Origin: Clostridium massiliamazoniense
GTDB taxonomy: Bacteria; Bacillota; Clostridia; Clostridiales; Clostridiaceae
Assembly (NCBI RefSeq): GCF_001403635.1
Contig: NZ_LN879468.1
Coordinates: 1-64,000, forward strand
Direction: 5' to 3'
DNA length: 64,000 nt
Every line of letters begins with the position of its first letter. Position 1 is the stretch's first letter. This document shows positions 29,653-58,722 of this stretch, one piece after another. The position numbers and the translations under genes are program-made. The notes under the pieces are model-generated. The model searched no databases and had not been told where the DNA came from. It saw only the letters and a list, made by a program, of their open reading frames with translations.

Positions 29653-29700
29653 GATGTATCACAGCATTTTGTACCTATATAGCTATCTTGGCAAATGAAA
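29653..29700 (+). repeat. Right end of palindromic repeat (module B fragment)
   Basis: cacagcattttgtacctata followed by tagctatcttggcaaatg matches the right end of the 193-bp palindromes at 34995-35187 and 40151-40343. It directly precedes a complete module A. Confidence 0.75.
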
Positions 29701-29710
29701 AAATACATTT

Positions 29711-29858
29711 ATCTGATAGCTAGAGGCTGTAATACTCCTATCTTCTATAAGTAGGAGATAAACAGCCTCACGCTTCTAGATAACGACCACTATGCATTCA
29801 GATGGAGTCAAAACTCCATCTGAATTAAGTCTACGTTTATAAAAGTAATATAAATTAG
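29711..29858 (+). repeat. Module A structured intergenic repeat, near-intact copy
   Basis: Contains atctgatagctaga, the perfect stem GAGGCTGT (29723-29730) with ACAGCCTC (29762-29769) enclosing a second stem ctccta/taggag, then tctagataac. A second perfect hairpin TTCAGATGGAGT (29797-29808) with ACTCCATCTGAA (29813-29824) follows, then the tail gtctacgtttataaaagtaa. The same order of elements occurs at 41711 and 56052. No ORF is encoded. It looks like a structured RNA or miniature mobile repeat. Confidence 0.85.
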
Positions 29859-29890
29859 GGTGCTGATTTGATACAGCACCTTTGTTTTTT
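29859..29890 (+). terminator. Hairpin terminator between module A and module B copies
   Basis: ggtgctg (29859-29865) pairs with cagcacc (29874-29880), followed by a T run. Confidence 0.75.
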
Positions 29891-29892
29891 AA

Positions 29893-30030
29893 CTAGGTAT
29901 ATAGGCTCATTATTTGTGACCACGTACCTAGGTAAAGGAGCTTTAATATTTTTTCTATAACAGTTTGCTAAAGTTTTTAAACTCATTTTATTTTCTGAGT
30001 AAGTTCTGCTACAGTTTTTGTTAAATTATA
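29893..30030 (+). repeat. Module B palindrome, decayed copy
   Basis: ctaggtatataggctcatta through tttgtgaccacgtaccta and the internal ctttaatattttttct follow the left arm of the copies at 34995 and 40151. The right arm is heavily diverged. Confidence 0.65.
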
Positions 30031-30067
30031 AGCTGGCTTATAAGTAAAAAAGTAATGCCAGACTTTT

Positions 30068-30550
30068 TTATAAAAATATTTTATAAAGTAAACCCAAGGT
30101 TAAGAGAGTTCCCAATAATATAATTGCTGAAGGCTTTAGCTTTTCAATAATACTATGGTTTTCTTTTTTATAATTTATTTTAAAGTCATAGTTTAGATTT
30201 TTTAAACTAGAATTCAAAATATCTTTACTAACTTTTATTAGGAACTTTTTATTTTCCTTTGAAACAATCTCCAATTTCCTTGATTTTTCATAATAATTGA
30301 AATGTTTAATTGAAGAATAAGGTATGCTTAATTCATCAGTACTATTATTTCCGTTGTTAAGGCTACCTAAAATTAAATGATTTTTAGTAAAAGCCATTAA
30401 ACAATCAAAGCTTTGATTAGTTTGAAATAAATTATTTAAATCATTGGAATAGGTTGCTACTGGAGAACCTATTAAATAACTTATGATACCAGTTCCTCTA
30501 TTAAGAATCGACGGAACTTCATTTGGAGTTTCGTATATGGGCTCAGACAT
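30068..30550 (-). CDS. Tail-anchored protein of unknown function
   Basis: The 160-residue product has a predicted soluble N-terminal part with a beta-rich centre (FDCLMAFTKNHLILGSL ... IPYSSIKHFNYYEKSRKLEIV), resembling a PH/GRAM-like fold, and a single C-terminal membrane helix (about 140-158, SAIILLGTLLTLGLLYKIFL). AGGAAG lies about 10 nt before ATG. It is convergent with degV across the repeat cluster. The fold suggestion is tentative; the gene at 58073 has a similar strand pattern. Function unknown. Confidence 0.65.
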   Translation of the reverse strand: MSEPIYETPNEVPSILNRGTGIISYLIGSPVATYSNDLNNLFQTNQSFDCLMAFTKNHLILGSLNNGNNSTDELSIPYSSIKHFNYYEKSRKLEIVSKENKKFLIKVSKDILNSSLKNLNYDFKINYKKENHSIIEKLKPSAIILLGTLLTLGLLYKIFL

Positions 30551-30631
30551 TAAATTTACACTTCCTTTTCTTTTATATTATTAATGATTATTATAAACAT
30601 TATATGTGAGGAAAGCAATAAAGTTTAAAAC

Positions 30632-31189
30632 TTAAAGTCCTTTTTTCTTTCCTTCTATACCTCTTTCCTTTAATATTTCATATATAGTTTTTGATGTAGT
30701 ATCTTCCATTGTATAACCTAGAATATTTAAAATTTCTTGAAGTTCTTTTTCTGATGTTGTTTCTATTTCTATATAAGGGAAAGGACAAAAACTAGGATCA
30801 TTTATATCTATTTCTATTAAGGAATTTTTATACTTATAACTTTCTCTATATTTTTTTATACTTTCTTGAAGCTCTAACCCTAAAGAAGTAAAGATTTTAC
30901 TTCCCATTTCACCATTTTCTATTAGGGTTTCGTTTTCTTCCATAACCTTAAATTTTTCTTGAGATAGCATTTTCTTTGTTGTCATGAAATGAACAATTTT
31001 ATTGTTTATTAAATCTTCTACAGTTCTTATTCTTGCATAACCTTTTTCACTTAGTAATCTTCTGTCTGGAAAGTCATATATATTATTTATTTGATTTTCT
31101 TTTTTTACATTTTCAGCTTTTATTTCAGTCATTTTATTTCTTATTTCATCTATGTTTATATCCATTATTCTAGTTTCAAATTCTTTCAT
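30632..31189 (-). CDS. CYTH-domain protein (triphosphate-processing family)
   Basis: The 185-residue product opens with MKEFETRI, a variant of the ExExK signature of CYTH domains (E-F-E-T-R). It has RRLLSEKGYARIRTVED, TTKK, SLIEIDINDP and PYIEIETTSEKEL, the alternating charged strands of the tunnel fold. Family members hydrolyse or cyclise nucleotide or thiamine triphosphate, or inorganic tripolyphosphate, with Mg2+. Arg in place of the signature Lys is worth noting. GGAGG 8 nt before ATG. The exact substrate is unknown. It is monocistronic between an unknown tail-anchored gene and the divergent deacetylase-like gene at 31343. Confidence 0.85.
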   Translation of the reverse strand: MKEFETRIMDINIDEIRNKMTEIKAENVKKENQINNIYDFPDRRLLSEKGYARIRTVEDLINNKIVHFMTTKKMLSQEKFKVMEENETLIENGEMGSKIFTSLGLELQESIKKYRESYKYKNSLIEIDINDPSFCPFPYIEIETTSEKELQEILNILGYTMEDTTSKTIYEILKERGIEGKKKGL

Positions 31190-31342
31190 TGTAAGACCTC
31201 CAAAAGATAATTTATTAATTTAGATTCTTTAATTATAACAACATTATATATTTAGGTAAAAGAAAAAGTGTTTTAAAAACTTAAATTTTGGGAATTATAA
31301 ATTGAGATAGAATTAAGATTTTATGGGAAGAGGGTATTTTAT

Positions 31343-32650
31343 ATGAAAAAATTTATGTTTTTGATTATAGGTTCTTTAATAGCAATTATTTTTTTTGGAC
31401 TTTTAATAAATAATACTAAAATAATGCAATCATGGGGAGAAAAGAGTAGTTTTGAATCAATGAATATGCAAGGAGATAATATAAAACTAAATATAAATGG
31501 TAAAGAACTTAAATTAAATAGCAAAATATTTTTAAATGAAAATAGATATTACATACCATTAGATGAAATAGTTAAGGTTAATAGTGGAACTGTTAAAAGA
31601 GGTAAAAATTCTATTGTTATAAATTTATTTAATAAGGAAATTGTTATAGATAAAAATAATTGGACCATAAATAATGAAAACATTAAGTTAAAGAAAAAAA
31701 TAATTAATTATAAAAATGATATATATATATCTTTATTTGATTTTGCTAATATATTTGATTTAGAAAGTAGATGGAGTTTTGATAATAAAACAATAAAACT
31801 TTATAAAGTTGAAAAGGATAATAGTATTGAGAAATACTCTGGAAATGGAAAGCAAGAAGGAGCTATAAGATTTGAGGATGTATCTATTGAAGGTAATGGA
31901 ACTTTAAAAGAATCACAGTATTTAGAAACTTTAAGGTTTATAGGAAAGAACTTGTACGAAAGAGATATGTCTTACTTTATAGCTTGGATACCTAGATATA
32001 TTAATAAGGAGAAAAATGTAGATGCAGATCCATCAAAGGAAAATTCATTTCCTTTAGCAGAATTAGTTTATACATTAGATTATCTAAGTAGTAAGAATGC
32101 TTATATAGGTCTTCATGGATATACCCATCAAAGAGGTGATGAGGTTTCAGGAGAGGGCGAAGAATTTGGAAAGAATTATCCATCGCTTGAAGAATTAAAT
32201 TCAAGAGTAAAAAAAGCTTTAGCAATAGCAGATTATTTAGATATAGATATTTCATTTTTTGAAGCACCTCATTATTTAATAACTGTTAAGCAAAATGAAG
32301 AACTTGAAAAGAATTTTAAGTATATATTTAATAATTACAACTGTGAAGTTCATCTTGATAATCAAAGAAATATAATTAAGTCTCCTACAGGAAATAATAG
32401 CTATTACATTCCAACCCCCCTTTATTATGTGGAAGATAGTACAGGAGATAATATGATAAAGAAAATTAAGAGATTTCCAAGCAGTGATTTTGCTGGATTA
32501 TTTTATCATCCTTTTATAGAAGTTGATTATATTGATTTTACGGAGGATGAAAATGGAGTTCCCAAAGTAAGTTATAAGGAAAAATCAATTTTGATGAAAA
32601 TAATAGATGCTTTAGAAGAGAAAAATATTAAATTAATGAGATTAAGTTGA
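31343..32650 (+). CDS. Exported DUF2334 polysaccharide-deacetylase-like protein, copy 1
   Basis: The 435-residue product has an N-terminal signal anchor (4-24, FMFLIIGSLIAIIFFGLLI). Residues about 48-155 form a copper-amine-oxidase-N-like domain (INGKELKLNSKIFLNENRYYIPLDEIVKVNSG) repeated in halves. The C-terminal DUF2334 deacetylase-like domain (about 165-435) has IRFEDVS, YIGLHGYTHQRGDE, FFEAPHYLIT and GLFYHPFIE. His and Asp/Glu residues at these motifs recall the NodB metal site, with Glu in place of the usual first Asp. It probably acts on cell-surface polysaccharide outside the membrane. AGAGGG before ATG. A paralogue follows. Confidence 0.82.
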   Translation: MKKFMFLIIGSLIAIIFFGLLINNTKIMQSWGEKSSFESMNMQGDNIKLNINGKELKLNSKIFLNENRYYIPLDEIVKVNSGTVKRGKNSIVINLFNKEIVIDKNNWTINNENIKLKKKIINYKNDIYISLFDFANIFDLESRWSFDNKTIKLYKVEKDNSIEKYSGNGKQEGAIRFEDVSIEGNGTLKESQYLETLRFIGKNLYERDMSYFIAWIPRYINKEKNVDADPSKENSFPLAELVYTLDYLSSKNAYIGLHGYTHQRGDEVSGEGEEFGKNYPSLEELNSRVKKALAIADYLDIDISFFEAPHYLITVKQNEELEKNFKYIFNNYNCEVHLDNQRNIIKSPTGNNSYYIPTPLYYVEDSTGDNMIKKIKRFPSSDFAGLFYHPFIEVDYIDFTEDENGVPKVSYKEKSILMKIIDALEEKNIKLMRLS

Positions 32651-32785
32651 ACTTTTTAGGTATAAGTAGATTAAGAATTTTAAAAAGTAGAGAAAGCTTA
32701 TAAATTTGTTTATGAGAGGTTTACATATGTAAAAATATAAAATACAATAGAGTATATTGAAAGAGTTAATAAAAAATTCATAAAT

Positions 32786-32834
32786 TTCACTAACTATTAA
32801 TTAAAAACTATCAATAGTTAGTGAACTTGTTTTT
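32786..32834 (+). terminator. Terminator between the two DUF2334 genes
   Basis: ttcactaactatt (32786-32798) pairs perfectly with aatagttagtgaa (32813-32825), then a T run. Confidence 0.85.
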
Positions 32835-32850
32835 TGCTTTAAGATAATCA

Positions 32851-34137
32851 ATGGAATTTACTAGAGAAGAGGTTAAGGATTTGTTTTGGTTTAATAAAAA
32901 ATTGATTTTAGAAGACATAGGTACTATAAACCCTAAGGAAGATAATATACTTATTAATTTTGAAGGAAATACTTTGAAATTAAAAAATAAGATATATATC
33001 TGTAGAAATAGATATTATATACCTTTTAGTGAGATAATATCAGTAAATGGAGGAGTTATAAAAGAAAAGGGAAGCAATATTAAACTTAACTTTCAAGATG
33101 AAGAGTTTAATTTAAATACTAGCGATAATACTTGGATAAATAAAAAGTTTAAGAGAGAGGTAAATAAATTAAAAAAACCCTTATTAAAAGATGGGGAAAC
33201 TATATATATTTCATTAGTTGATTTTGGAAATATTTTAAATTTAAAAAGTAGATGGAATAGTGAAAATAAGTGTATAAAATTATACAAAGATATAGACCAT
33301 AAGGAAGTAGTTCCTTATGTAAGAAATAGTAAACAAAAAGGACTTTTAAGATTAGAGGATGTTGCTATTGGAGGTAGTGGAACAAAATATGATTCTAACT
33401 ATTTAGAATGCACTAGATATATGGGAGCCTTTTTAGGTAAAAGAGGTGTTCCTTATCATGTAGCTTGGATACCTAGATATATAGATAGTAAAAAAAATAT
33501 AGATGGTGATCCATCAAAGAAAAATTCATTCCCTTTAGCGGAGTTAATTTATACTTTAGATTACTTATCCTTTAGAAGAGGGATAATAGGATTACATGGT
33601 TATACTCATCAAAGAGGTGATGAAGAATCAGGTATAGGTAATGAATTTGGGGCAGACTATCCAAGTATTGATGAGTTAAAAGAGAGAATAGAAAAAGCAC
33701 TAGACATAGCTAAATATTTAGATGTAAAGATAGAATTTTTTGAAGCGCCTCATTATGTAATTACTTTTGAACAAAATAAGGTTTTACAAAATTATTTTAA
33801 ATATATAATAAATAATTATAAAAGTGAAGAGCATTTAAGTAATCAAATTGATATAGTTAAAGCTAATGATTATAAGGAAGCTTATTATATTCCAACACCT
33901 TTATATTATGTTGATGATAGAACAGGAGATAATATGGTAAGGGTTATAGAAAATATGGACAACTTTATATTTGCAGGATTATTTTATCATCCAATAGTAG
34001 AGCATACATTAGTTGAATTTAAGGAAAGAGAAGACGGATATCCAGTAATGGAATACAAGTTTGAATCAACTTTGAAAAAGGTAATTAAAGCCTTAGAGGG
34101 AAGAGGCGTAAATATGATAGAAGTTAGTGAAATCTAA
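32851..34137 (+). CDS. DUF2334 deacetylase-like protein, copy 2, lacking a signal peptide
   Basis: The 428-residue product is paralogous to copy 1 along the copper-amine-oxidase-N-like and DUF2334 domains: LRLEDVAIGG, IIGLHGYTHQRGDE, FFEAPHYVIT, GLFYHPIVE. Unlike copy 1 it has no N-terminal hydrophobic segment. It starts only about 17 bp after a terminator with no recognisable ribosome binding site before ATG 32851; TTG 32881, with gaggttaagga upstream, is an alternative. So export and expression are both in doubt and the 5' end may have been lost. The catalytic-domain motifs are intact. Confidence 0.72.
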   Translation: MEFTREEVKDLFWFNKKLILEDIGTINPKEDNILINFEGNTLKLKNKIYICRNRYYIPFSEIISVNGGVIKEKGSNIKLNFQDEEFNLNTSDNTWINKKFKREVNKLKKPLLKDGETIYISLVDFGNILNLKSRWNSENKCIKLYKDIDHKEVVPYVRNSKQKGLLRLEDVAIGGSGTKYDSNYLECTRYMGAFLGKRGVPYHVAWIPRYIDSKKNIDGDPSKKNSFPLAELIYTLDYLSFRRGIIGLHGYTHQRGDEESGIGNEFGADYPSIDELKERIEKALDIAKYLDVKIEFFEAPHYVITFEQNKVLQNYFKYIINNYKSEEHLSNQIDIVKANDYKEAYYIPTPLYYVDDRTGDNMVRVIENMDNFIFAGLFYHPIVEHTLVEFKEREDGYPVMEYKFESTLKKVIKALEGRGVNMIEVSEI

Positions 34138-34288
34138 TAATAATGAGTTTTGAGAAATGAATTTTAAAGCAATAGTTTTAATAATTGGTTAAATATAGTT
34201 TTTTCTTTTCTTAATAAAGTGGTATAATTATAGTAATTCCCACTGAAAAAGTAGGGATTAATATAAAAGCAACTTTGGAGGTATATTC

Positions 34289-34942: not shown

Positions 34943-34950
34943 TAATAAAT

Positions 34951-34990
34951 GTGGATACATCAATGACTTTGATGTATCCACTATGCCTTT
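34951..34990 (+). terminator. Terminator after nitroreductase copy 1
   Basis: gtggatacatca (34951-34962) pairs with tgatgtatccac (34970-34981), followed by tatgccttttag. The same hairpin-plus-gcctttt arrangement precedes the module B copy at 40151. Confidence 0.75.
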
Positions 34991-34994
34991 TAGC

Positions 34995-35187
34995 TAGCTA
35001 TATAAGTTCACCATTTGTGACCGCTCACCTACGTAAAGAAGCTCTAACATTTCTTCTACAATAGTTGCTAAAATTTTCAAACTCCTTTCAGTCAAATAGT
35101 GAAAATTTTTTACACAACTATTGCTCAGAAATGAAGAGCTTCTAATTACTAGTTCAATGGTCACAGCATTCTGTACCTATATAGCTA
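34995..35187. repeat. Module B: 193-bp palindromic repeat, copy 1
   Basis: Begins tagctatataagttcaccat and ends gtacctatatagcta, terminal inverted repeats of about 30 bp. Internal arms also pair: agaagctct with agagcttct, caatagttgc with acaactattg, and aaaattttcaa with gtgaaaatttt. The whole unit can fold into one long hairpin. The length equals that of the copy at 40151 (193 bp). No ORF. Confidence 0.88.
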
Positions 35188-35298
35188 TCTCGGCAGATGT
35201 TAATACCTAATATTGTGATAAACCAAGACTTAATTTAAGTAGAGTCTTGACTTTATTTGAATTTTAGTTAAAGTTTATAAAACATTATATATAAATTT
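35188..35298. repeat. Conserved right flank of module B plus decayed module A tail
   Basis: tctcggcagatg follows the palindrome exactly as at 40344 and 57901. The rest (taatttaagtagagtcttga ... tttgaattttagttaaagtt) is a weak match to the 3' hairpin and tail of module A. Confidence 0.55.
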
Positions 35299-35324
35299 AG
35301 GGATTGCATTAACGCAATCCCTAA
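35298..35324 (-). terminator. Terminator of mgtA copy 3
   Basis: tagggattgc (35298-35307) pairs with gcaatcccta (35314-35323), immediately after the stop codon on the minus strand and followed there by AT-rich sequence. Confidence 0.8.
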
Positions 35325-35328
35325 ATCT

Positions 35329-37974
35329 TTATAACCAATTTTTATATCTCTTGATGTACCACATTTTTACGAATTGTGTTAGTGTGCAGTATGCAACTAT
35401 TACAAAGGCAATGTATGCAAAGTATATTAGTGGTACAGGAACCATTCCAACAATTGAACCTATTGCTGTGTAAGGAAGTATCCAGCCTATTGCTAAAGAT
35501 AGTATTATACCAACGTTCATTTGCCATGAAGCATTGCTTTGGAAGAATGGTACTTTTTCTGTTCTTAACATATAAACTACTAAAACTTGAGTAGCTAGTC
35601 CTTCTATAAACCAAGCAGTTTGGAACATTGGAACTTTTGCAGCTGTTGTGCATCCAAATACGAACCACATTAATAGGAAAGTTGTTTGGTCAAAGATAGA
35701 ACTTGTTGGTCCAACTATAACTGTAAACTTAACTATATCAGCGCCATCCCATTTTCTTGGAACTTTTAAGTATTCTTCGTCAACTTTATCCCATGGTATA
35801 ACTATTTGAGTTATATCGTAAATTAAAGTTTGAAGTAGTATTTCAAGTGGTAGCATAGGTAAGAAAGGTAAGAATATACTAGCTACCATTACACTTATAG
35901 TATTTCCGAAGTTTGAGCTTACTGTCATTTTTAAGTATTTAGTTATATTAGCGAAAATTTTTCTTCCTTCTATAACTCCTTCTTCAAGAACCATTAAATC
36001 TTTTTCAAGTAGAATTATATCAGCAGCTTCTTTAGCTATATCAACAGCAGTATCAACTGATATACCAACATCTGATTCTTTTAGTGCAATAGCATCGTTG
36101 ATACCATCTCCCATGAAACCAACAGTTTTTCCGTTTTCTTTTAAAACTCTAACAATTCTAGCTTTTTGCATTGGATTTAATTTTGCAAAAACATTAGTGT
36201 TTTTTGATAAATTAAATAGTTCTTTATCTGATAGATTATCTATATCACTTCCAAGTACTATATTATTAACGTTTAATCCAACTTCAGCACATACTTTTTT
36301 AGTTACTATTTCATTATCTCCAGTTAGAATCTTAACATCAACACCGTAGTTATTTAAAGCTTTTATAGCTGCTTTAGCACTTTCTTTTGGTGGATCTAGG
36401 AATGCTATGAATCCTATTAAAGTCATTTCACTTTCATCTTTAACACCAAAGTCTGTTGATAAAGACATATTATCCTTTTTAGCAACACCGATAACTCTCA
36501 TGCCTTCAGCATTTAATTTTTTACTTGTGCTTAAAACTTTTTCACGACGTTCTTTTGTTAATTCATAAGTGTGACCATTTAATTCAACGTACTTAGAAAT
36601 TGAAAGCATTTCTTCTAAAGCACCTTTAGTTATTATTCTTCCTTGATCTTCTTCTTTTCCCTTTAATACAACAGACATTCTTCTTCTATTAAAATCAAAA
36701 GGAATTTCATCTACTTTATCAAAAACTGCATCTAAGTTTTTAAAGCCTTGTGCTTCACCAAATTCTATAATTGCTAAATCCATTAAGTTTTTTAATCCAG
36801 TTTGGAATGAACTATTTAAATATCCATACATTAAAACTCTATGGTCTTCTTCACCATTTAAGTTTAAGTGTTTTTCTACAATTATTTTATCTTCTGTTAA
36901 AGTTCCAGTTTTATCAGTACATAAAACATCCATAGCACCAAAGTTTTGAATAGATTTAAGTTTCTTTACAACTGTCTTTTTCTTTGACATTTTTACAGCA
37001 CCTTTAGCTAGGTTAGCTGAAACAATAGTTGGTAGCATAACAGGAGTTAGACCAACAGCAACTGATACGGCAAATAAAAGAGCTTGTAGGAAACTTCCTT
37101 TATCAATCCAGTTTATTATGAATACTATAGGAACCATAACTAGCATGAATTTTAATAATAGTTTAGATACTTTCTCAACACTTTTATCAAAGCTAGTTTT
37201 TCCATCTACTGTATTTAAATTCTTTTGCATTGCTCCAAAATAAGTAGTTTCACCAGTACCAATAACTACACCTAAGGCACTACCACTAATTACATTAGTT
37301 CCAAGCAGACAAATATTACTTAAATCACCAATGTTGTTTTTAGAATCAGTATTATAGCTGAACTTTTCAATTGCTTCAGATTCTCCAGTTAGTGCAGATT
37401 GACTAATGAATAAATCTTTACATTCTAATATTCTTAAATCAGCAGGAATCATATCACCAGCTGCTAGTTTAACTATATCTCCAACAACTAGATTTTTCAT
37501 ATTTATTTCTTCAAAATCTTTTCCATCTCTTTTTACAGAGCAGGTAGTAGTGACCAAATTTTTAAGTTCTTCAGCAGCAAGTCCAGATTTAAATTCTTGA
37601 GCGAAAGAGATTATACCACTTACTAGAATTAGAATTACAATTATGATAATTTGTGACCAACTAGCTTGGCCAGGTGGAACTAAAACTACGTCTGTAAAGT
37701 AACTTATAATAGCTATTAGTACCAATACTAAATTAAAGTAGTTCATAAAGGATTTTATAAATTGCATTAATACAGAATCTTTTTTACTTTCATTAACTGC
37801 ATTAAGTCCATATTTCTCAATTCTCTTTTCAACCTCAGTGGAACTTAAACCATTTGTAGTACTACTGAATTTACGTAGTAAATCTTCCTTTGGAAGATTG
37901 CTATTTTTTATTAATTCATTACTAATTTTTTTATAATTTTCTTCATTGAATTTTCTTTGATTTTTATTTTTCAT
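35329..37974 (-). CDS. mgtA: MgtA-like P-type ATPase, copy 3, under an M-box
   Basis: The 881-residue product is homologous to the two copies at 6647 and 10044. It has TGES, CTDKTGTLTED, GDGINDAIALKESDVGISV and YDITQIVIPWDKVDEE. Its TM4 motif is GLTPVMLP (Val312), as in copy 1, not the PEML of copy 2 and of known MgtA. ATG with GGAGGT 8 nt upstream. An M-box Mg2+ riboswitch lies in the 5' leader, so transcription should be on when Mg2+ is low, which links this variant to magnesium. Unlike the other two copies, no small membrane-protein gene follows; a terminator comes within 5 bp of the stop. Confidence 0.94.
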   Translation of the reverse strand: MKNKNQRKFNEENYKKISNELIKNSNLPKEDLLRKFSSTTNGLSSTEVEKRIEKYGLNAVNESKKDSVLMQFIKSFMNYFNLVLVLIAIISYFTDVVLVPPGQASWSQIIIIVILILVSGIISFAQEFKSGLAAEELKNLVTTTCSVKRDGKDFEEINMKNLVVGDIVKLAAGDMIPADLRILECKDLFISQSALTGESEAIEKFSYNTDSKNNIGDLSNICLLGTNVISGSALGVVIGTGETTYFGAMQKNLNTVDGKTSFDKSVEKVSKLLLKFMLVMVPIVFIINWIDKGSFLQALLFAVSVAVGLTPVMLPTIVSANLAKGAVKMSKKKTVVKKLKSIQNFGAMDVLCTDKTGTLTEDKIIVEKHLNLNGEEDHRVLMYGYLNSSFQTGLKNLMDLAIIEFGEAQGFKNLDAVFDKVDEIPFDFNRRRMSVVLKGKEEDQGRIITKGALEEMLSISKYVELNGHTYELTKERREKVLSTSKKLNAEGMRVIGVAKKDNMSLSTDFGVKDESEMTLIGFIAFLDPPKESAKAAIKALNNYGVDVKILTGDNEIVTKKVCAEVGLNVNNIVLGSDIDNLSDKELFNLSKNTNVFAKLNPMQKARIVRVLKENGKTVGFMGDGINDAIALKESDVGISVDTAVDIAKEAADIILLEKDLMVLEEGVIEGRKIFANITKYLKMTVSSNFGNTISVMVASIFLPFLPMLPLEILLQTLIYDITQIVIPWDKVDEEYLKVPRKWDGADIVKFTVIVGPTSSIFDQTTFLLMWFVFGCTTAAKVPMFQTAWFIEGLATQVLVVYMLRTEKVPFFQSNASWQMNVGIILSLAIGWILPYTAIGSIVGMVPVPLIYFAYIAFVIVAYCTLTQFVKMWYIKRYKNWL

Positions 37975-38212: not shown

Positions 38213-38435
38213 GCCCTTTCATTGTGTAAGTAGCAAACTTAAACAATGAAAGGGCGTATAATCAGAATTATACAATCCATCGTTCAAGCTTTGACTCTAC
38301 AAGGCGGTGAAATTGCATTAAATTAAGCCTTCTTTGTTCGGCAAAATCTGTTGACCTGTTAAAAGTGTTTCCACCTTTTCACGGCAGCAATCCATATCCT
38401 TGAGGTAGCCTCACCTACCGAGGGGATTCTTAAAT
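38213..38435 (-). promoter_or_regulatory. M-box (ykoK) magnesium riboswitch upstream of mgtA copy 3
   Basis: On the minus strand the leader reads ggtaggtgaggctacc near 38404-38422, then gattgctgccgtgaaaaggt, aacaggtcaacagattttgcc and cttaatttaatgcaatttca, the conserved M-box elements in order. The expression platform is a long terminator, gccctttcattg (38213-38224) pairing with caatgaaagggc (38245-38256), followed by a T run. Mg2+ binding is known to favour termination in this class. Confidence 0.96.
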
Positions 38436-39937: not shown

Positions 39938-40099
39938 ATGCATACAAAAGAATATAAAATAGTAAGTATAACCAGCAAGATGACAGAGTTACTTTTGTTA
40001 AATGATGTTAATATAGAAAGATTATATAACCTTTTAGAAAGTGAAGATGAAAATACAAAAATGCTTATAGATGTTTTATTCTTTACTTTGAATACTTAA
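39938..40099 (+). CDS. 53-residue hypothetical protein
   Basis: ATG with AAGGAGTAGG 6-8 nt upstream. The product starts MHTKEYKIVSITSKM and is predicted helical, acidic and leucine-rich (TELLLLNDVNIERLYNLLES), without a membrane segment. A terminator hairpin follows 7 bp after the stop, which supports a genuine gene. Family not recognised. The preceding stretch 39685-39937 shows no gene. Confidence 0.6.
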   Translation: MHTKEYKIVSITSKMTELLLLNDVNIERLYNLLESEDENTKMLIDVLFFTLNT

Positions 40100-40106
40100 G
40101 AAACTT

Positions 40107-40148
40107 AGAGGATGTATCAAATTACAGATACATCCTCTATGCCTTTTA
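40107..40148 (+). terminator. Terminator preceding module B copy 2
   Basis: agaggatgtatc (40107-40118) pairs perfectly with gatacatcctct (40127-40138), then atgccttttat. The same hairpin sequence occurs at 57931-57960 in the opposite orientation. Confidence 0.8.
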
Positions 40149-40150
40149 TC

Positions 40151-40343
40151 TAGCTATATAGGTTCACCATTTGTGACCACTCACCTACGTAAAGAAGCTC
40201 TAATATTTTTTCTGCAATAGTTGCTAAAATTTCCAAACTCACTTTATTCAAACAATGGAAATTTTTTCACGCAACTATTGTTCAAAAATAAAGAGCTTCT
40301 AGTACTAGTTCAATGGTCACAGCATTTTGTACCTATATAGCTA
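40151..40343. repeat. Module B: 193-bp palindromic repeat, copy 2
   Basis: Left end tagctatataggttcaccat, right end tttgtacctatatagcta. Internal complementary arms include agaagctct/agagcttct, caatagttgc/gcaactattg and aaatttcca/tggaaattt, so the element is a near-complete long hairpin. Highly similar to the copy at 34995-35187 and of equal length. Confidence 0.9.
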
Positions 40344-40390
40344 TCTCGGCAGATGAAGAAATATATTTATAAAAGTAATATAAATTAAGG
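40344..40390. repeat. Module B right flank with the shared tail
   Basis: tctcggcagatg, then tttataaaagtaatataaat, which is the same tail that ends the module A copy at 29836-29856. Here no module A lies between, showing that the modules combine differently at each locus. Confidence 0.75.
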
Positions 40391-41629: not shown

Positions 41630-41710
41630 TAACTCTCTATTAATTTAGATTAAAGAACTCATTTATAAAACCGATAATTTTATAGGTATTGAAGAAGTAA
41701 GTCTATGTTA

Positions 41711-41840
41711 ATCTGATAGCTAGATGCTGTAATATTCCTAGCTTTAACGAGCAAGAAATAAACAGCTTCACGCTCCTAGATAACTGCGACTAAGTATTCA
41801 GATGGAGTAAAACTTCAGCTGAAATAAGTCTACGTTAATT
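41711..41840 (+). repeat. Module A structured intergenic repeat, divergent copy
   Basis: atctgatagctagatgctgt, acagcttcacgctcctagat and tattcagatggagtaaaact are followed by gtctacg. Both stems persist with one mismatch each (gatgctgt/acagcttc; ttcagatggagt/acttcagctgaa), so pairing is largely kept despite substitutions. It lies between the MFS gene and the GGDEF-EAL gene. Confidence 0.8.
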
Positions 41841-48933: not shown

Positions 48934-49782
48934 ATACCTCCTATTTTTATTTGTAATATAAAATTTATAAATAAGTTCTAAAAAATATAATTAAGATTAA
49001 TAATTATATTTTTGATATTAAAAATATTCTAAGCTTAATTAACTAAAATTTTTGAATATTATCTTATAACTTTGTAATAGAAGTTTTTAAAAAAATTAAT
49101 TAATTATTTTAAATAATATATGTCAAAAGTTAGCTAAATTAAATAATAATCTATTTATATTTTGTTATGTTTATATCTTGATTATTTTTATACAGTTAAC
49201 GGTTACAAAAAATCATTTTTTTATTTAGATTTATTATTTAAATAATTTGACATTACGTAAAACTATTGTTAAAAAATAATCTTATAATACAAAAACTTAT
49301 TAATATATTTATTATTTTAAGATTTTACATATCTACATAAAAATTTAATGCTTAGAATTTATTTTTAATAATCTATTTTTTATAATACATAAATTACCAA
49401 TAAAATACAAATTTATAATTTTATTAAAACGTCAAAAAATAATATTGATAATATTAAATTGTTAAAAAATATACCTAATTAATATTAAATTATTAAATTA
49501 TTAGAGAAAATAATAAAATTATAATAAAATATTTTTATTGAAAATTATTACAAATTTTAAAAAATAGTAATGATAAGAATATCTAAATAATAAAATAGTA
49601 TTATTAAGTTATATACAGCGCTCTAATTAAAGTTAAGTTTTATTGACTATATTTATATAAAATAGCATACGTAGTTAATATGTCGATAAATAATAATAAA
49701 TTAAGGGAAAAAAACATTAAATTTATGAGAGTGGAAAAGTTAGAAAATTAAATTTTATATAGTGTTTTTTAAGAGCAAAAAA
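48934..49782. other. Long AT-rich intergenic region upstream of manX
   Basis: About 850 bp with very low GC and no convincing coding frame on either strand. On the minus strand tgtaaccgttaact (49206-49193) is a partial match (12 of 14) to the CcpA cre consensus and may give catabolite control of the PTS operon. I found no -24/-12 sigma-54 promoter. No known RNA family recognised. Confidence 0.45.
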
Positions 49783-49828
49783 AGAAGCTTATCAGATTGA
49801 TTATTTAATCAATCTGATATAGCTTCTC
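49783..49828 (-). terminator. Terminator of the coiled-coil gene pair
   Basis: gaagcttatcagattgatt (49783-49801) pairs with aatcaatctgatatagcttc (49807-49826), with a one-base bulge; T run on the minus strand. Confidence 0.88.
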
Positions 49829-49830
49829 TT

Positions 49831-50121
49831 TTATTGATTTTTTTCTTGTTCTAATTGAGTATTTAAATTATTCACGTTAGAAGTTTTAGCAGTTATATGA
49901 GAATTTATTTTATTTAATTCAGATTGTTTAGCCTCTAGGTCTTGTAATGATTTTTCATATTCATACTTAGTGCTATTGTATTGGGATTCAGTAACACCAG
50001 GTGATAGAGATTCACCAAATAGATTTCCGAAACCAAGCATAAATAGAATAATAAAAGTATTTATTATATATTTTTTTATTTTTTTCTTAGAATTATTATT
50101 TTTTTGTAAGTTTAAACCCAT
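49831..50121 (-). CDS. Small exported coiled-coil protein
   Basis: The 96-residue product has a basic N-terminus (NNNSKKKIKKY), one hydrophobic segment (about 19-38) and an extracytoplasmic helical part with heptad-like Leu/Ile spacing (YEYEKSLQDLEAKQSELNKI). ATG with AGGGGGG 5 nt upstream, only 9 bp after the upstream gene's stop, so cotranscribed. Its coiled coil resembles that of its upstream neighbour (both have S-x-Y-N and K-x-L-x-x-L-E-x-K patterns), as if it were a shortened sister lacking the C-terminal domain. No family recognised. Confidence 0.65.
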   Translation of the reverse strand: MGLNLQKNNNSKKKIKKYIINTFIILFMLGFGNLFGESLSPGVTESQYNSTKYEYEKSLQDLEAKQSELNKINSHITAKTSNVNNLNTQLEQEKNQ

Positions 50122-52890: not shown

Positions 52891-52930
52891 TTTTATATAA
52901 ATACATAAAAATTTATTTGAACTTTTATCT

Positions 52931-53221: not shown

Positions 53222-54367
53222 ATGAAGAAGGTATTAATTGGAATAATAATAGTTATTATTGTATTTATAGGGCTTTTTAGTCTTAAAATTATTTTTAATA
53301 AGAACTCAGCTATAGTAAATAAAAATTCAATTGTTTTAAAAACAGTGACAACTCAAAAAAATAATATAGAGAATAATGGTAATAACAATAATAGTAATAA
53401 TGGCGGAATAGTTCAAGAAAAAAACAAAGGAACTACAGTGTTAAACTCTGTAAAAGTAAATTCTAATATAGCAAATACTAATTCAGTTAAAAATAAAAAT
53501 TCTAACAAGCCAAATATTATAAGTGCTAAGCAAAAACCAAATCCTTATGGATATACTTATGCAACTGCTAGTGATCTAAAGAATATAAGTGGTATTTATA
53601 ATTTTGATAATTTTGCTAAAGGAAGAGAAATTAATGCACTTAAAGACTTAAGTGGAATAACTTTAAATTCAAAGGGCGTAGTTTTAAATAATGATATTAC
53701 TGGAAACAATATATATTCAAGTTCAGAAAGAATAAAAATATATAAAGTTACATCAAGTGAATTTTACATAATATTTGGAGCAACACCAACATCACTTGGA
53801 TTACAAGGGAATGATTTTAATGTCTATGCTATTGGAGATGTATTTATTTATCAATTGCCAAATAAAAATATAGTATTTTCTTTTGAAAGTGGGGCAGGAA
53901 ATGCGATTAACACTACTAATAGCTTACCAACATCAAATGTTAGTAAATGGTATGGAATTTATACAGTAAATAATAAAATTGGACAGGTTAATGGAGTTAA
54001 TAATTATGGTGAAAAAGCTATAAATTTAACAGGTGAAAAGGTAATAATTGGAAGTAATGAATTTAAATATAAAAATATAACAATTAAAAATCCACAATAT
54101 TATATTGTAAAAGTAACTTCTAATGATTTATTAGGAACATCCTATTCGGGAGTAGATTTAACTGGAGAAGATGCAGATTTTCTTGCTGTTTTGGGACCAG
54201 GAGAAAAAATGTCTAATTTCTTATACAATAATCTTCCATCATATACAGGATGTTTGTCTGGAGCTTGGGCTGCTGGTATATCAATGCCAATAATCTTAGG
54301 ACCTAATGGAAATGTTCAAGTTATGAATAATAATGAAGAAATATATTCAACTCTTAAAAATAGATAA
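53222..54367 (+). CDS. Membrane-anchored protein with Asn-rich linker, unknown function
   Basis: The 381-residue product has an N-terminal hydrophobic anchor (4-25, VLIGIIIVIIVFIGLFSLKIIF), an Asn/Lys/Ser-rich linker (about 30-105) and a C-terminal extracellular domain (about 110-381) starting NPYGYTYATASDLKNISGIY. That domain is rich in beta-type segments (IKIYKVTSSEFYIIFGATP, KITIKNPQYYIVKVTS in part). A Gly-rich end CLSGAWAAGISMPIILGPNG is notable. AAAGGAG 7 nt before ATG. Same overall layout as the protein ending at 4579. No family recognised; cell-surface location is inferred. Confidence 0.72.
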   Translation: MKKVLIGIIIVIIVFIGLFSLKIIFNKNSAIVNKNSIVLKTVTTQKNNIENNGNNNNSNNGGIVQEKNKGTTVLNSVKVNSNIANTNSVKNKNSNKPNIISAKQKPNPYGYTYATASDLKNISGIYNFDNFAKGREINALKDLSGITLNSKGVVLNNDITGNNIYSSSERIKIYKVTSSEFYIIFGATPTSLGLQGNDFNVYAIGDVFIYQLPNKNIVFSFESGAGNAINTTNSLPTSNVSKWYGIYTVNNKIGQVNGVNNYGEKAINLTGEKVIIGSNEFKYKNITIKNPQYYIVKVTSNDLLGTSYSGVDLTGEDADFLAVLGPGEKMSNFLYNNLPSYTGCLSGAWAAGISMPIILGPNGNVQVMNNNEEIYSTLKNR

Positions 54368-54474
54368 GTAAAGGGAAGATCAAGGAATATATAGAAAAAG
54401 TATAACAATAAAATAAATTTAAATGTATCAAAAGTGATAAAATGGTAATATAATATAACAAATAGTAAAATCTT

Positions 54475-54752
54475 TGATTGAAAGAAGTAGCTATAAGTAG
54501 GTTAGTACAGCGAGCTGTTGTTTGGTGGAATGCACAGTGTAACTCTTATGGTGAAATGGGTTCATGAGATGCGAGGGTGAAACTTTAAGGGAGTAGCCTA
54601 AGCCCTGTCCTCAGGTTATAGGGGTAGAATATCGAGCTAAGGCTCCGTATTTGAGAGAATAAGAACAACTATAGATACATATCTATAGAGGTTGAATTTG
54701 GGTGGCACCACGACACTATCGTCCCAAGGTAGGGATATAGTGTTTTTTTTAT
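54475..54752 (+). promoter_or_regulatory. T-box leader (probably tryptophan) controlling trpB
   Basis: A Stem I-like region begins about 54485 (aagtagctataagtaggtta). The T-box element GGGTGGCACCACG lies at 54700-54712, a variant of GGGUGGUACCGCG. It is followed by a terminator acactat...tccc / ggga...atagtgt (54713-54743) with eight T. A TGG triplet at 54557-54559 could be the Trp specifier (tentative). The class responds to uncharged tRNA, so trpB should be induced on Trp starvation. Confidence 0.88.
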
Positions 54753-54842
54753 GCAAATATTCTTTTTACTTTGCTACCAATGAGCTTATTCTTCCAAAGA
54801 TTTTAACTAAATTTGTTTTATTAAAAATGGAGGATGATTTAT

Positions 54843-56009
54843 ATGAAAGGTTATTATGGAAGTTTTGGTGGACAATATGTACCAGAGGAAATTAAAAATG
54901 CATTAAAGGAAGTAGAAGAGGCATTTTATAAGTACAAGGATGATGAAGAGTTTAAAAATGAATATATGTATTATTTAAATAATTATGTTGGTAGACCATC
55001 ACCTCTATATTATGCAAAAAGATTAACTGAGTATTTAGGAGGAGGTAAGGTTTATTTAAAGAGAGAAGATTTAAACCATACTGGTGCTCATAAAATAAAT
55101 AATGTTATAGGACAAATGCTTATAGCAAAAAGATTAGGTAAAAAGAAAGTTATAGCAGAAACAGGAGCAGGACAACATGGTGTAGCAACAGCAACAGTGG
55201 CAGCACTTATGGGAATGGAATGTGAAGTTTATATGGGAGAAATTGATGTAAAGAGACAAGAGCTTAATGTTTTTAAGATGGAGCTTTTAGGGGCTAAGGT
55301 TATTCCAGTTACGGAGGGAACAAGAACTTTAAAGGAAGCTGTAGATGCAGCTTTAAAAGCATATGTAGATGAAGCTAAAGATGCTTTTTATGTATTAGGT
55401 TCAGCAGTAGGTCCACATCCTTATCCTACAATGGTAAAGGAATTTCAAAAAATAATAAGTGAAGAAGCAAAGGAACAAATATTAAAAGCTGAAGGGAAAT
55501 TGCCAAAAGCAATAATAGCTTGTGTTGGTGGTGGAAGTAACGCCATAGGAGCTTTTGCAACTTTTATAGAAAATAAGGATGTTGAGCTTATAGGAGTAGA
55601 AGCAGCTGGAGAGGGATTAGAAACAGAAAGACATGCTGCAACAATAACTAAGGGAGTTGAAACTATAGTCCATGGTATGGATACACTTTGTCTTGTTGAT
55701 GAAAAGGGGGAAGTGAAAGAAGCTTATTCTATATCAGCAGGTCTCGATTATCCAGGAGTTGGACCAGAACATTCATTTTTAAGTAAAATAGGAAGAGCTC
55801 ATTATTATTCAATAACAGACAAAGAAGCAGTGGAAGGGTTCAAATTATTAACAAAATTAGAGGGAATAATTCCAGCTATAGAAAGTTCACATGCTGTGGC
55901 TTATGCTACTAAGTATGTGCCAAAAACTAATAAGGATGACATTATAATAATAAATATTTCTGGAAGAGGAGATAAGGATGTAGATCAAATAAGGGCATAT
56001 TGCAATTAA
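54843..56009 (+). CDS. trpB: Tryptophan synthase beta chain (orphan trpB)
   Basis: Condenses indole with serine to make tryptophan. The 388-residue PLP enzyme has [15 protein letters not shown] (PLP Lys84), [17 protein letters not shown], the phosphate loop GGGSNAIG, and [14 protein letters not shown]. Length fits the classical TrpB1 type. No trpA or other trp gene is nearby, so it probably works by indole salvage. ATG 54843 has GGAGG 9 nt upstream and the family starts at K-G-Y-Y-G-x-F-G-G. It is monocistronic behind a T-box; a module A repeat and terminator follow. Confidence 0.95.
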
Positions 56010-56051
56010 CTTTAGCTTAAGCAGATGATGTAAAAATAAAGTGATTAATTT

Positions 56052-56193
56052 ATCTGATAGCTAGAGGCTGTAATACTCCTATCTTTTATAAGCAGGAGAT
56101 AAACAGCCTCACGCTTCTAGATAACTTCGACTAAGATTCGGATAGAGTTAAAACTCCATCTGAATTAAGTCTACGTTTATATAATAATATAAA
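56052..56193 (+). repeat. Module A structured intergenic repeat, near-intact copy
   Basis: Contains atctgatagctagaggctgt, ctcctatc...aggag, acagcctcacgcttctagat and gattcggatagagtt / actccatctgaat, then gtctacgtttatataataat. The first stem GAGGCTGT/ACAGCCTC is perfect. In the second, most changes from the 29711 copy keep pairing or give G-U. Lies directly after trpB. Confidence 0.85.
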
Positions 56194-56256
56194 TAAACAA
56201 CTTCTTCTTGGGGCGAATTTATGTTTAATAAATTGCAAGAGGGAGTTGTTTTATTG
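56194..56256 (+). terminator. Terminator after trpB and its repeat
   Basis: aaacaacttcttctt (56195-56209) pairs with aagagggagttgttt (56237-56251) with G-U pairs, enclosing a second small stem; followed by T-rich sequence. Confidence 0.65.
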
Positions 56257-56382
56257 TGGTTTTATAGAATTTACTTAGAGAAGGATATAATTCTATTTTG
56301 TGTGGAAATATTTATAAAAATATGAAGTAACATTTTGGTTAAATAGGTGAAAAAAATGAAATGCTAAAATTGAGGTGATTTT

Positions 56383-57828
56383 ATGAAATCAGTATGGAGC
56401 GAAAGCTGTGAATTAAAAAAGAGAGAATCTTTAGATAAGGATATAAAAACTGATGTTTTAGTCATTGGAGCTGGAGTGGCAGGACTAGTAACAGCATATC
56501 TGTTAAAAGAACAGGGAACAGACGTAGTTTTAATTGATAAAGGTGAAGTAGCTGGTGGAAATACTAAAAATACTACAGCAAAAGTAACATCTCAACATGA
56601 TTTAATTTATCATAAATTAATATCAGAGTTTGGGGAAGAAAAAGCTGGGCAGTATGCCAAAGCAAACGAACTAGCTATAAAAAAATATAAGGAGCTTATT
56701 GAAAAAAATAAAATAGATTGTGACTTTGAAGAAAAGGAAGCCTATGTTTATTCTGTAGATAAGGTTGATATACTTAAAGAGGAAGTAGAAGCAGCTAATA
56801 AACTTGGAATTAATGCAGAGTTTGTAGAAAATCTTAATCTTCCTTTTAATGTTAAGGGAGCTGTTAAATTTAATAATCAAGGGCAAGTTAATCCACTTAA
56901 ACTTTTAAAGAGTATTTCAGATGATTTAACCATATATGAAAATACTAGAGCTTTAGAAGTTAAAGAAAACTTAGTAGTTACTGATAAGGGTGATATAACT
57001 GTAAATCATATAGTAGTGGCAACACATTATCCAATTATAAAAACTGAAGGTGGATATCATTTCTTGCAAATGCATCAAGAAAGGTCCTATGTTTTAGCTT
57101 TGGAAGGTGCAGGGGATATTGATGGAATGTACATAGATGCTAATAAAAAAGGATATTCCTTTAGAACTTATAAAAATTTGCTATTATTAGGTGGAATAAG
57201 GCAAAGAACTGGAGAAAATAAAGAAGGTGGAAGTTATGATGCTTTAAGAAAAGTTGCAAAGGACTTATTTCCAGAAGCAAGAGAAAAGTATCATTGGTCT
57301 GCTCAAGATTGTATGACTGTGGATGGGATACCTTACATAGGAAAGGCTTCAGATGAAATGTCTAATGTATATGCTATAACAGGATTTAATAAGTGGGGAA
57401 TGACAAGTGCTATGGTGGCAGCTATGATAATATCAGATATGATATTAGGAAAGGAAAATGAGTTTTCAGAAATATTTTCTCCAAAGAGATTTGATTTTAC
57501 GGCATCAGTAAAGAATATGACAAAAGATATGAGTAAATTAGCTAAAAATCTTATTATGAAAAAAATATCTATTCCAAGTGGGGACATAGAACATATTAAA
57601 AATGGAGATGCTGAAATTATTGAATATGATGGAGAAAAGGTTGGAGTTTATAAAGATGCTGATGGTAAAGCCTTTATTGTATCAGCAATTTGTACACATA
57701 TGGGATGTGAACTTCAATGGAATAAGGATGAATTAACATGGGATTGTCCATGTCATGGGTCAAGATATGATTATGAAGGAAAAGTATTAGACAGCCCTAC
57801 AACAAAAGATATTTCAGAAGAAAAATAA
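56383..57828 (+). CDS. FAD-dependent oxidoreductase with C-terminal Rieske [2Fe-2S] domain
   Basis: The 481-residue protein has a DAO-type FAD fold: the dinucleotide site VLVIGAGVAGLVTAYLLKEQG (about 25-45), GGNTKNTTAKVTSQHD, and a C-terminal FAD element (ITGFNKWGMTSAMVAAMI, about 350). A Rieske domain (about 395-481) follows with cluster ligands C437-x-H439 and C455-P-C-H458. Substrate unknown; such proteins move electrons from an amine or other reduced substrate to a cluster. It appears complete, though the Rieske end is short after SPTTKD. ATG with GAGGTG 7 nt upstream. Module B sequence and a terminator follow. Confidence 0.92.
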   Translation: MKSVWSESCELKKRESLDKDIKTDVLVIGAGVAGLVTAYLLKEQGTDVVLIDKGEVAGGNTKNTTAKVTSQHDLIYHKLISEFGEEKAGQYAKANELAIKKYKELIEKNKIDCDFEEKEAYVYSVDKVDILKEEVEAANKLGINAEFVENLNLPFNVKGAVKFNNQGQVNPLKLLKSISDDLTIYENTRALEVKENLVVTDKGDITVNHIVVATHYPIIKTEGGYHFLQMHQERSYVLALEGAGDIDGMYIDANKKGYSFRTYKNLLLLGGIRQRTGENKEGGSYDALRKVAKDLFPEAREKYHWSAQDCMTVDGIPYIGKASDEMSNVYAITGFNKWGMTSAMVAAMIISDMILGKENEFSEIFSPKRFDFTASVKNMTKDMSKLAKNLIMKKISIPSGDIEHIKNGDAEIIEYDGEKVGVYKDADGKAFIVSAICTHMGCELQWNKDELTWDCPCHGSRYDYEGKVLDSPTTKDISEEK

Positions 57829-57875
57829 TAAAGGTATGATGCATGGAAAAGGGATTGTATCAAATCAGTATTTTA

Positions 57876-57926
57876 ATTTATATTACTTTTAAATTTTTTA
57901 TCTGCCGAGATAGCTATATAAAAGGC
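57876..57926 (-). repeat. Minimal module B site lacking the palindrome interior
   Basis: Read on the minus strand: ctgccttttatatagctatc then tctcggcagat and the tail aaaagtaatataaatta. Both outer flanks of the 40151 copy (gcctttta and tctcggcagat) are present, but only one copy of tatatagcta remains between them, as if the 193-bp palindrome were absent or excised. Confidence 0.75.
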
Positions 57927-57928
57927 AG

Positions 57929-57968
57929 AGAGGGTGTATCTATAATTTGATACATCCTCTTTTTTCAT
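57929..57968. terminator. Terminator after the FAD/Rieske gene, part of the repeat family
   Basis: agagggtgtatc (57929-57940) pairs with gatacatcctct (57949-57960) with one G-U, then a T run. The same hairpin sequence precedes the module B copy at 40151. Confidence 0.85.
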
Positions 57969-58072
57969 TAAATTAAAAATTTTATTCATATTAACTTTTA
58001 ATTCTATAAGTTTATATTTTTTAGTTATATGTTTTTTATAATAAATTAAAATTTAATTGGTAAAGGGCTTTA

Positions 58073-58375
58073 CTAAGACATTTTAAAGAAAGTAAGCAAA
58101 CTTTCTATATTTGGATTGCCAATGATATATTGGGCTCCTGTTTTTGTTTTTAGGTTTAAAGCTTTAGAGGATAAATATTCCTTAGTATAGGATTTTACTG
58201 TGAATACATCATAAAGTTTTATAGAAGATAAATCTTTTATTAAAAATTGAAATCTTAATGATTCCCATAGAAATTCTTTTGGTATAAAGGTTATTAATCC
58301 ATCTTTTATAGAAAGAGAAACTTCGCAGGAGTTATGTCCAATGTATCTTTTTACTTTTATATTATCAGTTAACAA
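58073..58375 (-). CDS. Small cytosolic protein, possibly PH/GRAM-like
   Basis: The 100-residue product is soluble with alternating hydrophobic strands (CEVSLSIKDGLITFIPKEF, FQFLIKDLSSIKLYDVFTV, ALNLKTKTGAQYIIG) and a final helix (NIESLLTFFKM), a pattern compatible with a PH-like barrel. The start is TTG with GGGAGG 8 nt upstream. Monocistronic. No family recognised; the protein ending at 30068 has a similar strand arrangement. Confidence 0.62.
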   Translation of the reverse strand: MLTDNIKVKRYIGHNSCEVSLSIKDGLITFIPKEFLWESLRFQFLIKDLSSIKLYDVFTVKSYTKEYLSSKALNLKTKTGAQYIIGNPNIESLLTFFKMS

Positions 58376-58479
58376 ATTTATATCCTCCCTTATTTATTAC
58401 CATTATATGTAAATTATATCACTTAACATAATAATTTCAATATATAATATATTAAATTTATAAATTTTTTTGATAAGTT

Positions 58480-58550
58480 ATAGAATGTTTAATTTCTTGC
58501 TTATAGAAAATATAAGAATTACAGTCTCTACCTATGAGATAAATTTTATT
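58480..58550 (-). repeat. Module A, decayed 5' half
   Basis: On the minus strand aatttatctcataggtagag, actgtaattcttatattttc and tataagcaagaaattaaaca follow the 5' hairpin region of the copies at 29711 and 56052, with point changes that weaken the stem. Confidence 0.7.
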
Positions 58551-58654
58551 TTTTATTATTTTACTTTTCATGAATTTGTAGTATGGGTTGATAATAAATA
58601 CATAGCATATATTCTACTGTTGGGAGGATACTATTAATGTATTAAATTTATAAA

Positions 58655-58722
58655 CTAAAATCTAATTAAGATAGAATTTTGATTCTAGCTGAATTTTAGT
58701 GGTAGTTATCTAGAGATGTGTG
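58655..58722 (-). repeat. Module A, decayed 3' half
   Basis: On the minus strand tctagataactaccactaaa, attcagctagaatcaaaatt and ctatcttaattag match the 3' hairpin of module A. The order relative to the 5' half at 58480 is inverted, so these are two separate fragments. 58551-58654 and 58723-58815 hold no other gene. Confidence 0.7.

Follow-up and report, generated by a model that had tools for sequence, protein, structure and literature searches.

Three families of short repeats, here called A, B and C, lie between the genes of the 64-kb window that we analysed (the whole stretch from position 1 to 64,000 of contig NZ_LN879468.1), and we consider it fairly probable that they are, mechanism included, non-autonomous miniature mobile elements nested in one another in intergenic DNA. 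Module A, of about 123 bp with two hairpins (122-123 bp between its flanks), has nine accepted copies, four of them complete (29.7, 41.7, 56.05 and 58.7 kb) and five shortened (4.5, 18.8, 27.2, 35.2 and 58.5 kb). Module B is a 193-bp palindrome, and module C is a dispersed unit of about 110 bp with terminator-like hairpins at its ends, found in four copies (29.65, 35.0, 40.1 and 57.9 kb) and in weaker traces at 56.0 kb. A preliminary description of this DNA had listed nine loci carrying pieces of the repeats, and all nine do hold pieces of A, B or C according to profile and covariance-model matches; to its list we add two A copies, one at 18.8 kb and one at 35.2 kb, which lies inverted next to B. 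Where it spoke of one composite element, a nesting of separately bounded units fits the combinations better, A being found inside and outside C and in both orientations, and B being absent at 57.9 kb. Its suggestion of structured, intergenic repeats of a non-autonomous, mobile-like kind is supported by nested filled and empty sites and by stems with paired changes.

Nesting of A and B in C

The nesting becomes visible when related sites with and without an element are compared. For A, the stretches at 29.7 and 40.35 kb differ by one A plus one TTTAT inside matching flanks, and for B, the C unit at 57.9 kb differs from those at 40.1 and 35.0 kb by a B in the loop of C. The layout of C is a first hairpin, then TGCC, a loop and GGCA, and then an AT-rich tail; at 57.9 and 29.7 kb the unit ends with a stretch repeating the TGTATCAAAT of the first hairpin in inverted order. 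B occupies the TGCC...GGCA loop. The C units at 40.1 and 57.9 kb contain no A; that at 29.7 kb has one in direct orientation in its tail, and A probably lies in a C tail also at 56.05 kb and, inverted, at 35.2 kb. It stands outside any recognised C at 4.5, 18.8, 27.2, 41.7 and 58.5-58.8 kb. The opposite orientations of A within C point to separate insertions rather than to one composite.

The copies of C and B can also be compared directly with one another. Between 35.0 and 40.1 kb, the first hairpin of C shows three altered stem positions, each changed on both sides, with 13 pairs in both copies, and the alignment of the two is better than all of 2000 shuffles; the C profile gives the end hairpin at 35.0 kb just an expectation value (E) of 0.045. 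B has a fold z score of -11 to -13, ends in ATA(G/A)GT(T/A)C, and carries terminal inverted repeats, a trait of miniature inverted-repeat transposable elements (MITEs), within its full-length palindrome. Its two full copies with their short flanks show 23 differing columns, gaps included, of 217 aligned, and the copy at 40.1 kb is flanked by TATCTAGCTAT and TATATAGCTAT, a repeat that is itself near-palindromic.

One could also suppose, as a serious possibility that we rate below even, that C with B is one long repeat moved or copied as a unit, in which case the unit at 57.9 kb would be a derivative that lost B through slippage between the TAGCTAT repeats flanking the palindrome. B or a remnant of it occupies one and the same place in C at 29.65, 35.0 and 40.1 kb, so that the two may have spread together; left of B, both full copies have CTAGC where the unit without B has ATAGC, and long palindromes are prone to deletion. 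A joint history sits less well with the comparison of 35.0 and 40.1 kb, where B itself differs less than the end hairpins and the tails do, and with a diverged half B that lies outside the C at 29.7 kb.

Edges, folding and placement of A

Six of the eight A copies with both ends have TTTAT on both flanks, the remaining two having TTAAT twice (41.7 kb) or TTTCT and TTTAT (58.7 kb). On the left flank alone, TTTAT is found in seven of the nine copies and TTAAT and TTTCT in one each, against a background of TTTAT at 1.2% of noncoding positions. Terminal inverted repeats are missing from A, since its ends, TTTAT-CTGATAG and AAGTCTACG-TTTAT, are by eye not inverted copies of each other. The presence of TTTAT on both sides is compatible with a right cleavage site borne by the element or with a 5-bp duplication.

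In complete copies the first hairpin is long and the second has up to 13 pairs; fold z scores of the copies are -8.3 (29.7 kb), -7.2 (56.05 kb) and -3.4 (41.7 kb). Among 325 noncoding spans between two TTTATs (60-170 bp between), the copies at 29.7 and 56.05 kb rank lowest in folding energy per base. Across the stems of six copies, 88.8% of 223 cells pair, compared with 84.1% in shuffles. Covariation in the stems, whose absence the preliminary description had named among the signs against its reading, is found: ten of the 43 pairs of A are changed on both sides (shuffled mean 4.2, a count of ten being reached by none of 500 shuffles), while in B seven of 72 pairs differ between the full copies, four of them on both sides, three of those four being paired in both copies.

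All nine A copies are noncoding save for 16 bases over the end of aroK; the product for random placement is 4.5e-8, assuming independence, and purging of harmful insertions accounts for the intergenic placement equally well. Relative to the nearest gene in our own gene list, six of the nine lie behind it in sense, one behind it in antisense and two in a divergent upstream gap, and a stop codon precedes an edge of C by 6-21 nt in all four copies (the gene at 40.1 kb being a 53-aa frame, and the edge at 57.9 kb being the tail), in keeping with the earlier remark that the repeats stand mostly behind genes. At 35.0 kb, C occupies most of the gap between two convergent genes. In line with the earlier statement that no protein is encoded, the repeats contain no frame of at least 80 aa; short frames of 30-56 aa overlap them at both loci checked. 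The statement that no transposase is nearby likewise agrees with our NCBIfam or Pfam scans, which recognised none among 44 of the 50 window proteins (one of them scanned as part). Some repeat copies do carry the terminator-like hairpins that had been described: C hairpins account for six of the ten terminator-like hits in 26-45 kb (both strands counted) and for one of the 11 in 45-64 kb, and some are terminator-like in both directions. We rejected A itself as a terminator, its stems not being among the terminator-like hits listed for 26-64 kb.

According to our best reading, A works like the TTTAT-linked bcr1-type repeats and/or like the ends-only elements of IS200/IS605 (PATEs), and would be moved in trans, its membership in either group being putative. 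Okstad reportedly described, in 2004, a TTTAT at each end of bcr1, a repeat of about 155 bp. The mobility of bcr1-bcr3 is linked to repetitions of TTTAT in excerpts of PMC6542083, and bcr repeats are MITE-like and often lie in untranslated regions (UTRs) or within operons in excerpts of PMC3446304. By these partial descriptions, and not by sequence, A resembles bcr1-bcr3 in being a short, TTTAT-linked, MITE-like intergenic repeat of many copies, and the repetition of TTTAT at the element is present in A on both sides in the six of eight copies given above; it differs from them in coming from a probably clostridial host rather than the Bacillus cereus group, and in being shorter, at 122-123 bp. 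With PATEs and IS200/IS605 ends-only elements A shares the lack of terminal inverted repeats, the near-terminal palindromes and a fixed pentanucleotide at the left edge, as far as passages of PMC3119063, PMC7290912 and PMC4227781 describe them, and it is unlike PATEs in that guides were not recognised, the first hairpin includes TTTAT itself, TTTAT stands on both sides and no parent element was seen.

In a stricter version of this comparison, which we regard as quite conceivable without preferring it, A would be a PATE in the full sense: the two ends, left and right, of a Y1-HUH transposon fused together, which a TnpA encoded elsewhere in the genome has placed 3' of TTTAT, with the right TTTAT as its own cleavage site and not a duplication. 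Its lack of terminal inverted repeats, its hairpins near both ends and its T-rich pentanucleotide target all agree with this, as does the arrangement at 41.7 kb, where a stretch resembling the right end of another A stands immediately before the left end, as in a right-end/left-end junction or a tandem. The reading draws support from the traits reported in the accessible portions of three papers: IS200/IS605 elements have neither inverted repeats nor target duplications and enter sites 3' of a tetra- or pentanucleotide (PMC7290912), the insertion site of group A IStrons follows TTGAT, ATTAT or TTTAT (PMC4227781), and PATEs are short, lack inverted repeats, have near-terminal palindromes and are targeted by other small repeats (PMC3119063). 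It has to contend with the guide sequence, for which no clear match was seen by eye (TTTATCT finds its best complement in the 3' foot of hairpin 1), with the absence of an orientation bias, with the lack of a parent element among the window proteins scanned, and with the two flanks at 41.7 kb, which have changed together to TTAAT.

The nesting, too, has a parallel. In the parts of PMC3119063 at hand, SMR-A insertions into the PATEs of Haloquadratum place small repeats inside palindromes of another kind and give conglomerates; the likeness is one of arrangement, not of sequence, and here the palindromic element B itself sits in C, as does A. Among clostridia, Clop-1 of C. perfringens and Clot-1 of C. 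tetani are families with a conserved stem-loop (93 and 74 nt, 44 and 19 copies, type I in the tables, taken to mean intergenic), to which the present repeats can be likened by description, not sequence, from the available sections of PMC2267715.

Proposed mechanism and competing readings

In the mechanism that we favour, a trans-acting enzyme would excise A as folded single-stranded DNA and insert it in that form, TTTAT being the target, while B and C would be moved by transposases recognising their inverted ends. Judging from its position, C may place terminator-like hairpins close behind stop codons and so fix the 3' ends of neighbouring transcripts, and A may become a folded segment of a 3' UTR. 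Selection would keep copies between genes only, where they would decay by deletions within the hairpins. The shortened A copies occur despite the retained structure, and a structure that serves movement by source copies therefore fits better than a role of each resident copy.

Several points weigh against nested mobile elements. Besides the shared position of B in C at three loci, by which C and B may have spread as a unit, the tail matches of C at 35.0 and 56.0 kb are weak, with 3 to 31 of 2000 shuffles scoring as high. Mobility is deduced from paralogous sites only, and the sites would look alike if A or B had been lost through slippage between TTTAT or TAGCTAT repeats. Of five pairing measures for A, one (further pair types) was reached by 53 of 500 shuffles, and the structure tested was taken from the fold of one of the six copies; because of this, and because the copies are related, we count the covariation of A as support and not as proof. 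A shows no strand preference, with four copies on the plus and five on the minus strand. The transposase scan covered 44 of 50 proteins, nine of which matched no family (genes starting at 4579, 17015, 17482, 30068, 49831, 50131, 53222, 58073 and 63486). Finally, outside the window no copy of A or of C with B was found by blastn against plasmids and phages, six DNA patterns gave no locus in viral contigs, and one exact A pattern gave none in genome contigs; these collections may hold few close clostridial records, so that the blanks say little.

Most likely, the repeats are small mobile pieces of DNA without genes, a known kind of thing, and the way they are arranged here lets their target sites be read. 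We hold it rather unlikely that A represents a TTTAT-specific class of mobile two-hairpin DNA, of a bcr1-like design common to bacilli and clostridia and moved by an undescribed mechanism, with C as a mobile terminator cassette by which the transcript ends of genes are replaced time and again, and as a landing pad for A and B; this idea builds on the lack of inverted ends in A and on the target pentanucleotide, which is on both sides and takes part in forming the first hairpin. The movement of TTTAT-specific elements that lack inverted ends deserves further study, and the nested copies offer ready-made empty and filled sites for deciding if TTTAT arises by duplication or comes with the element. 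Should A be of one group with the TTTAT-linked repeats known from Bacillus cereus and its relatives, this would bring a poorly understood class into another bacterial lineage. A mobile unit that sets terminator-like hairpins 6-21 nt behind stop codons would also give the evolution of transcript ends a direct path.

The preliminary description had also offered a structured RNA family as an explanation. The paired changes in the stems speak for it, whereas a reading of A purely as structured RNA is weakened by the shortened copies, in which the first hairpin is partly or entirely gone. In its explicit form, A would be a functional RNA family of 3' UTRs, spread by recombination and not by transposition, in which pairing is kept since the RNA stabilises or processes the mRNA, and this we consider improbable. 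The both-sided stem changes, the second hairpin retained in the copies at 18.8 and 27.2 kb despite a shortened first, and the six of nine copies in sense behind a gene would suit such a role, and there is a precedent in B. cereus, where 84 of 165 and 62 of 155 bcr repeats lie within an mRNA and bcr3 correlates with a longer half-life (in the passages available from PMC3446304). On the other hand, the first hairpin is partly or wholly lost at 18.8, 27.2 and 35.2 kb and cut in the partial copies at 4.5 and 58.5 kb, three copies are antisense or upstream, the A stems are missing from the listed terminator-like hits, and insertion is at one fixed pentanucleotide. That the similarity reflects chance among AT-rich terminators has next to no probability and is already refuted for the main copies: although the window is AT-rich and one coding false match reaches 15 bits, the best shuffled score in 50 windows is 5.9 bits and a piece of B outside the profile has E 1e-16.

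Copies, searches and gene content

The A profile for nhmmer was built from three copies and the covariance model from six. The profile recovers its own members (29708-29841, 56049-56181 and 41708-41840) and further matches 58768-58650(-) with E 2.6e-7, 58542-58489(-) with 1.6e-5, 4519-4484(-) with 1.8e-5, 18869-18825(-) with 3.7e-5 and 27170-27246 with 3.4e-4; these five copies outside the profile score 16-26 bits, and the shuffled windows mentioned above were dinucleotide-shuffled. The copy at 35282-35219(-) was accepted from the covariance model (E 5.5e-4), the profile giving it just 11.3 bits and E 0.011, and the half copies at 4.5 and 58.5 kb have a profile E of about 2e-5 and a covariance-model E of 2.0 and 1.7. 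Identity of the other complete copies to that at 29.7 kb is 112/121, 101/121 and 83/120 (69-93%). The left end of the copy at 27.2 kb (27152-27167) overlaps the last codons and the stop of aroK within the aro gene cluster.

Table 1 Positions of the copies of A, B and C in the window
Feature	Position	Strand	Remarks
A29, complete A	29708..29840	+	TTTAT both sides; inserted in C tail
A41, complete A	41708..41839	+	TTAAT both sides; right-end-like remnant of another A abuts left, about 41690-41712
A56, complete A	56049..56180	+	TTTAT both sides; behind trpB; probably in degenerate C tail (C flanks: 9 and 21 of 2000 shuffles as high)
A58b, complete, diverged A	58650..58780	-	83/120 identical to A29
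A58a, left half of A	58489..58542	-	profile E 1.6e-5; covariance model E 1.7
A27, first hairpin shortened	27152..27247	+	between aroK and aroQ; covers last 16 bases of aroK
A18, first hairpin shortened	18825..18917	-	TTTAT both sides; behind cyanase gene, antisense to it
A35, first hairpin gone	35218..35282	-	covariance model; probably inverted insertion in C tail
A04, left part of A and degenerate right end at TTTAT	4455..4521	-	right edge by eye
B35, 193-bp palindrome	34997..35189	+	full copy
B40, 193-bp palindrome	40153..40345	+	full copy
Right-end fragment of B within C29	29659..29687	+	profile E 3e-5
Left half of second, more diverged B just outside C29	29897..29991	+	profile E 1e-16
C29, B mostly deleted, A in tail, end hairpin 29857-29882 with T-run	29650..29883	+	
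C35, end hairpin 34951-34981, B, inverted A, tail, end hairpin about 35295-35325	34950..35325	+	tail and second hairpin just probable
C40, end hairpin 40106-40139, B, tail without A	40106..40387	+	second end hairpin not seen
C57, without A and B (paralogous empty unit), hairpin 57927-57962	57850..57962	-	cleanest C copy

Several candidates were discarded. At 336-360, a coding repeat mimics the second hairpin of A (15.0 bits, E 7.7e-4), because of which A-profile scores near 15 bits are unsafe alone; it belongs to the very large gene that also contains tandem 84-bp coding repeats at 2101-4008. The stretch 49765-49833 resembles the second hairpin of A (covariance-model E 0.0077) and is a strong hairpin ending in TTTTAT, probably an ordinary terminator, while matches at 16.5 and 44.8 kb (profile E 1.9 and 0.65) are not significant and stand outside all counts. 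As to known families, the repeats have no Rfam match in the window, whether gathering scores or E up to 0.1 set the limit; the sole matches there are two T-boxes and one M-box. With 29600-30100 alone and E up to 5, the best match is mir-873 (22.7 bits, E 0.015, gathering score 95), which we take as a chance hairpin match, and a 'trpB ncRNA motif' at 29795-29895 (24.6 bits, E 0.34, gathering score 59), covering the second hairpin of A and the end hairpin of C, is likewise taken as chance. Behind trpB there is indeed another A copy, at 56.05 kb.

Beyond the window, one plasmid record of 808,774 bases contained no match to the A model at E up to 1, and one B end pattern had no exact match in viral contigs. 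Protein queries gave no close relative in plasmids, and two proteins gave no locus in viral contigs; with PheA as the query, 90 stretches of genome contigs matched a pattern, none encoding a relative. A text search of the literature, which cannot find a sequence, turned up no paper recognisable as a description of these repeats in clostridia.

The window, whose gene content looks clostridial, has a G+C content of 27-28% and is noncoding over 19.7% of its length by our own list of 50 genes, which the NCBIfam/Pfam scans show to include an aro operon, leuS, a lone trpB, a mannose-type phosphotransferase system and cyanase. A 53-aa small frame (39938-40099, plus strand) with a ribosome-binding-site-like AAAGGAG stands directly before the C unit at 40.1 kb. 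The T-box leaders lie at 54465-54729, before the lone trpB, and at 16595-16798, before leuS. AroB and AroA (3-dehydroquinate synthase and EPSP synthase) are joined end to end in a single 776-aa frame at 21274-23604 (plus strand). Three long genes (6647-9301, 10044-12692 and 35329-37974) are related to each other by repeat comparison, the first and the last encoding MgtA-type magnesium ATPases, and the last standing behind the M-box at 38268-38429. The neighbouring genes 31343-32650 and 32851-34137 are also related, and the first of them has DUF2334 and a copper amine oxidase N-terminal domain.

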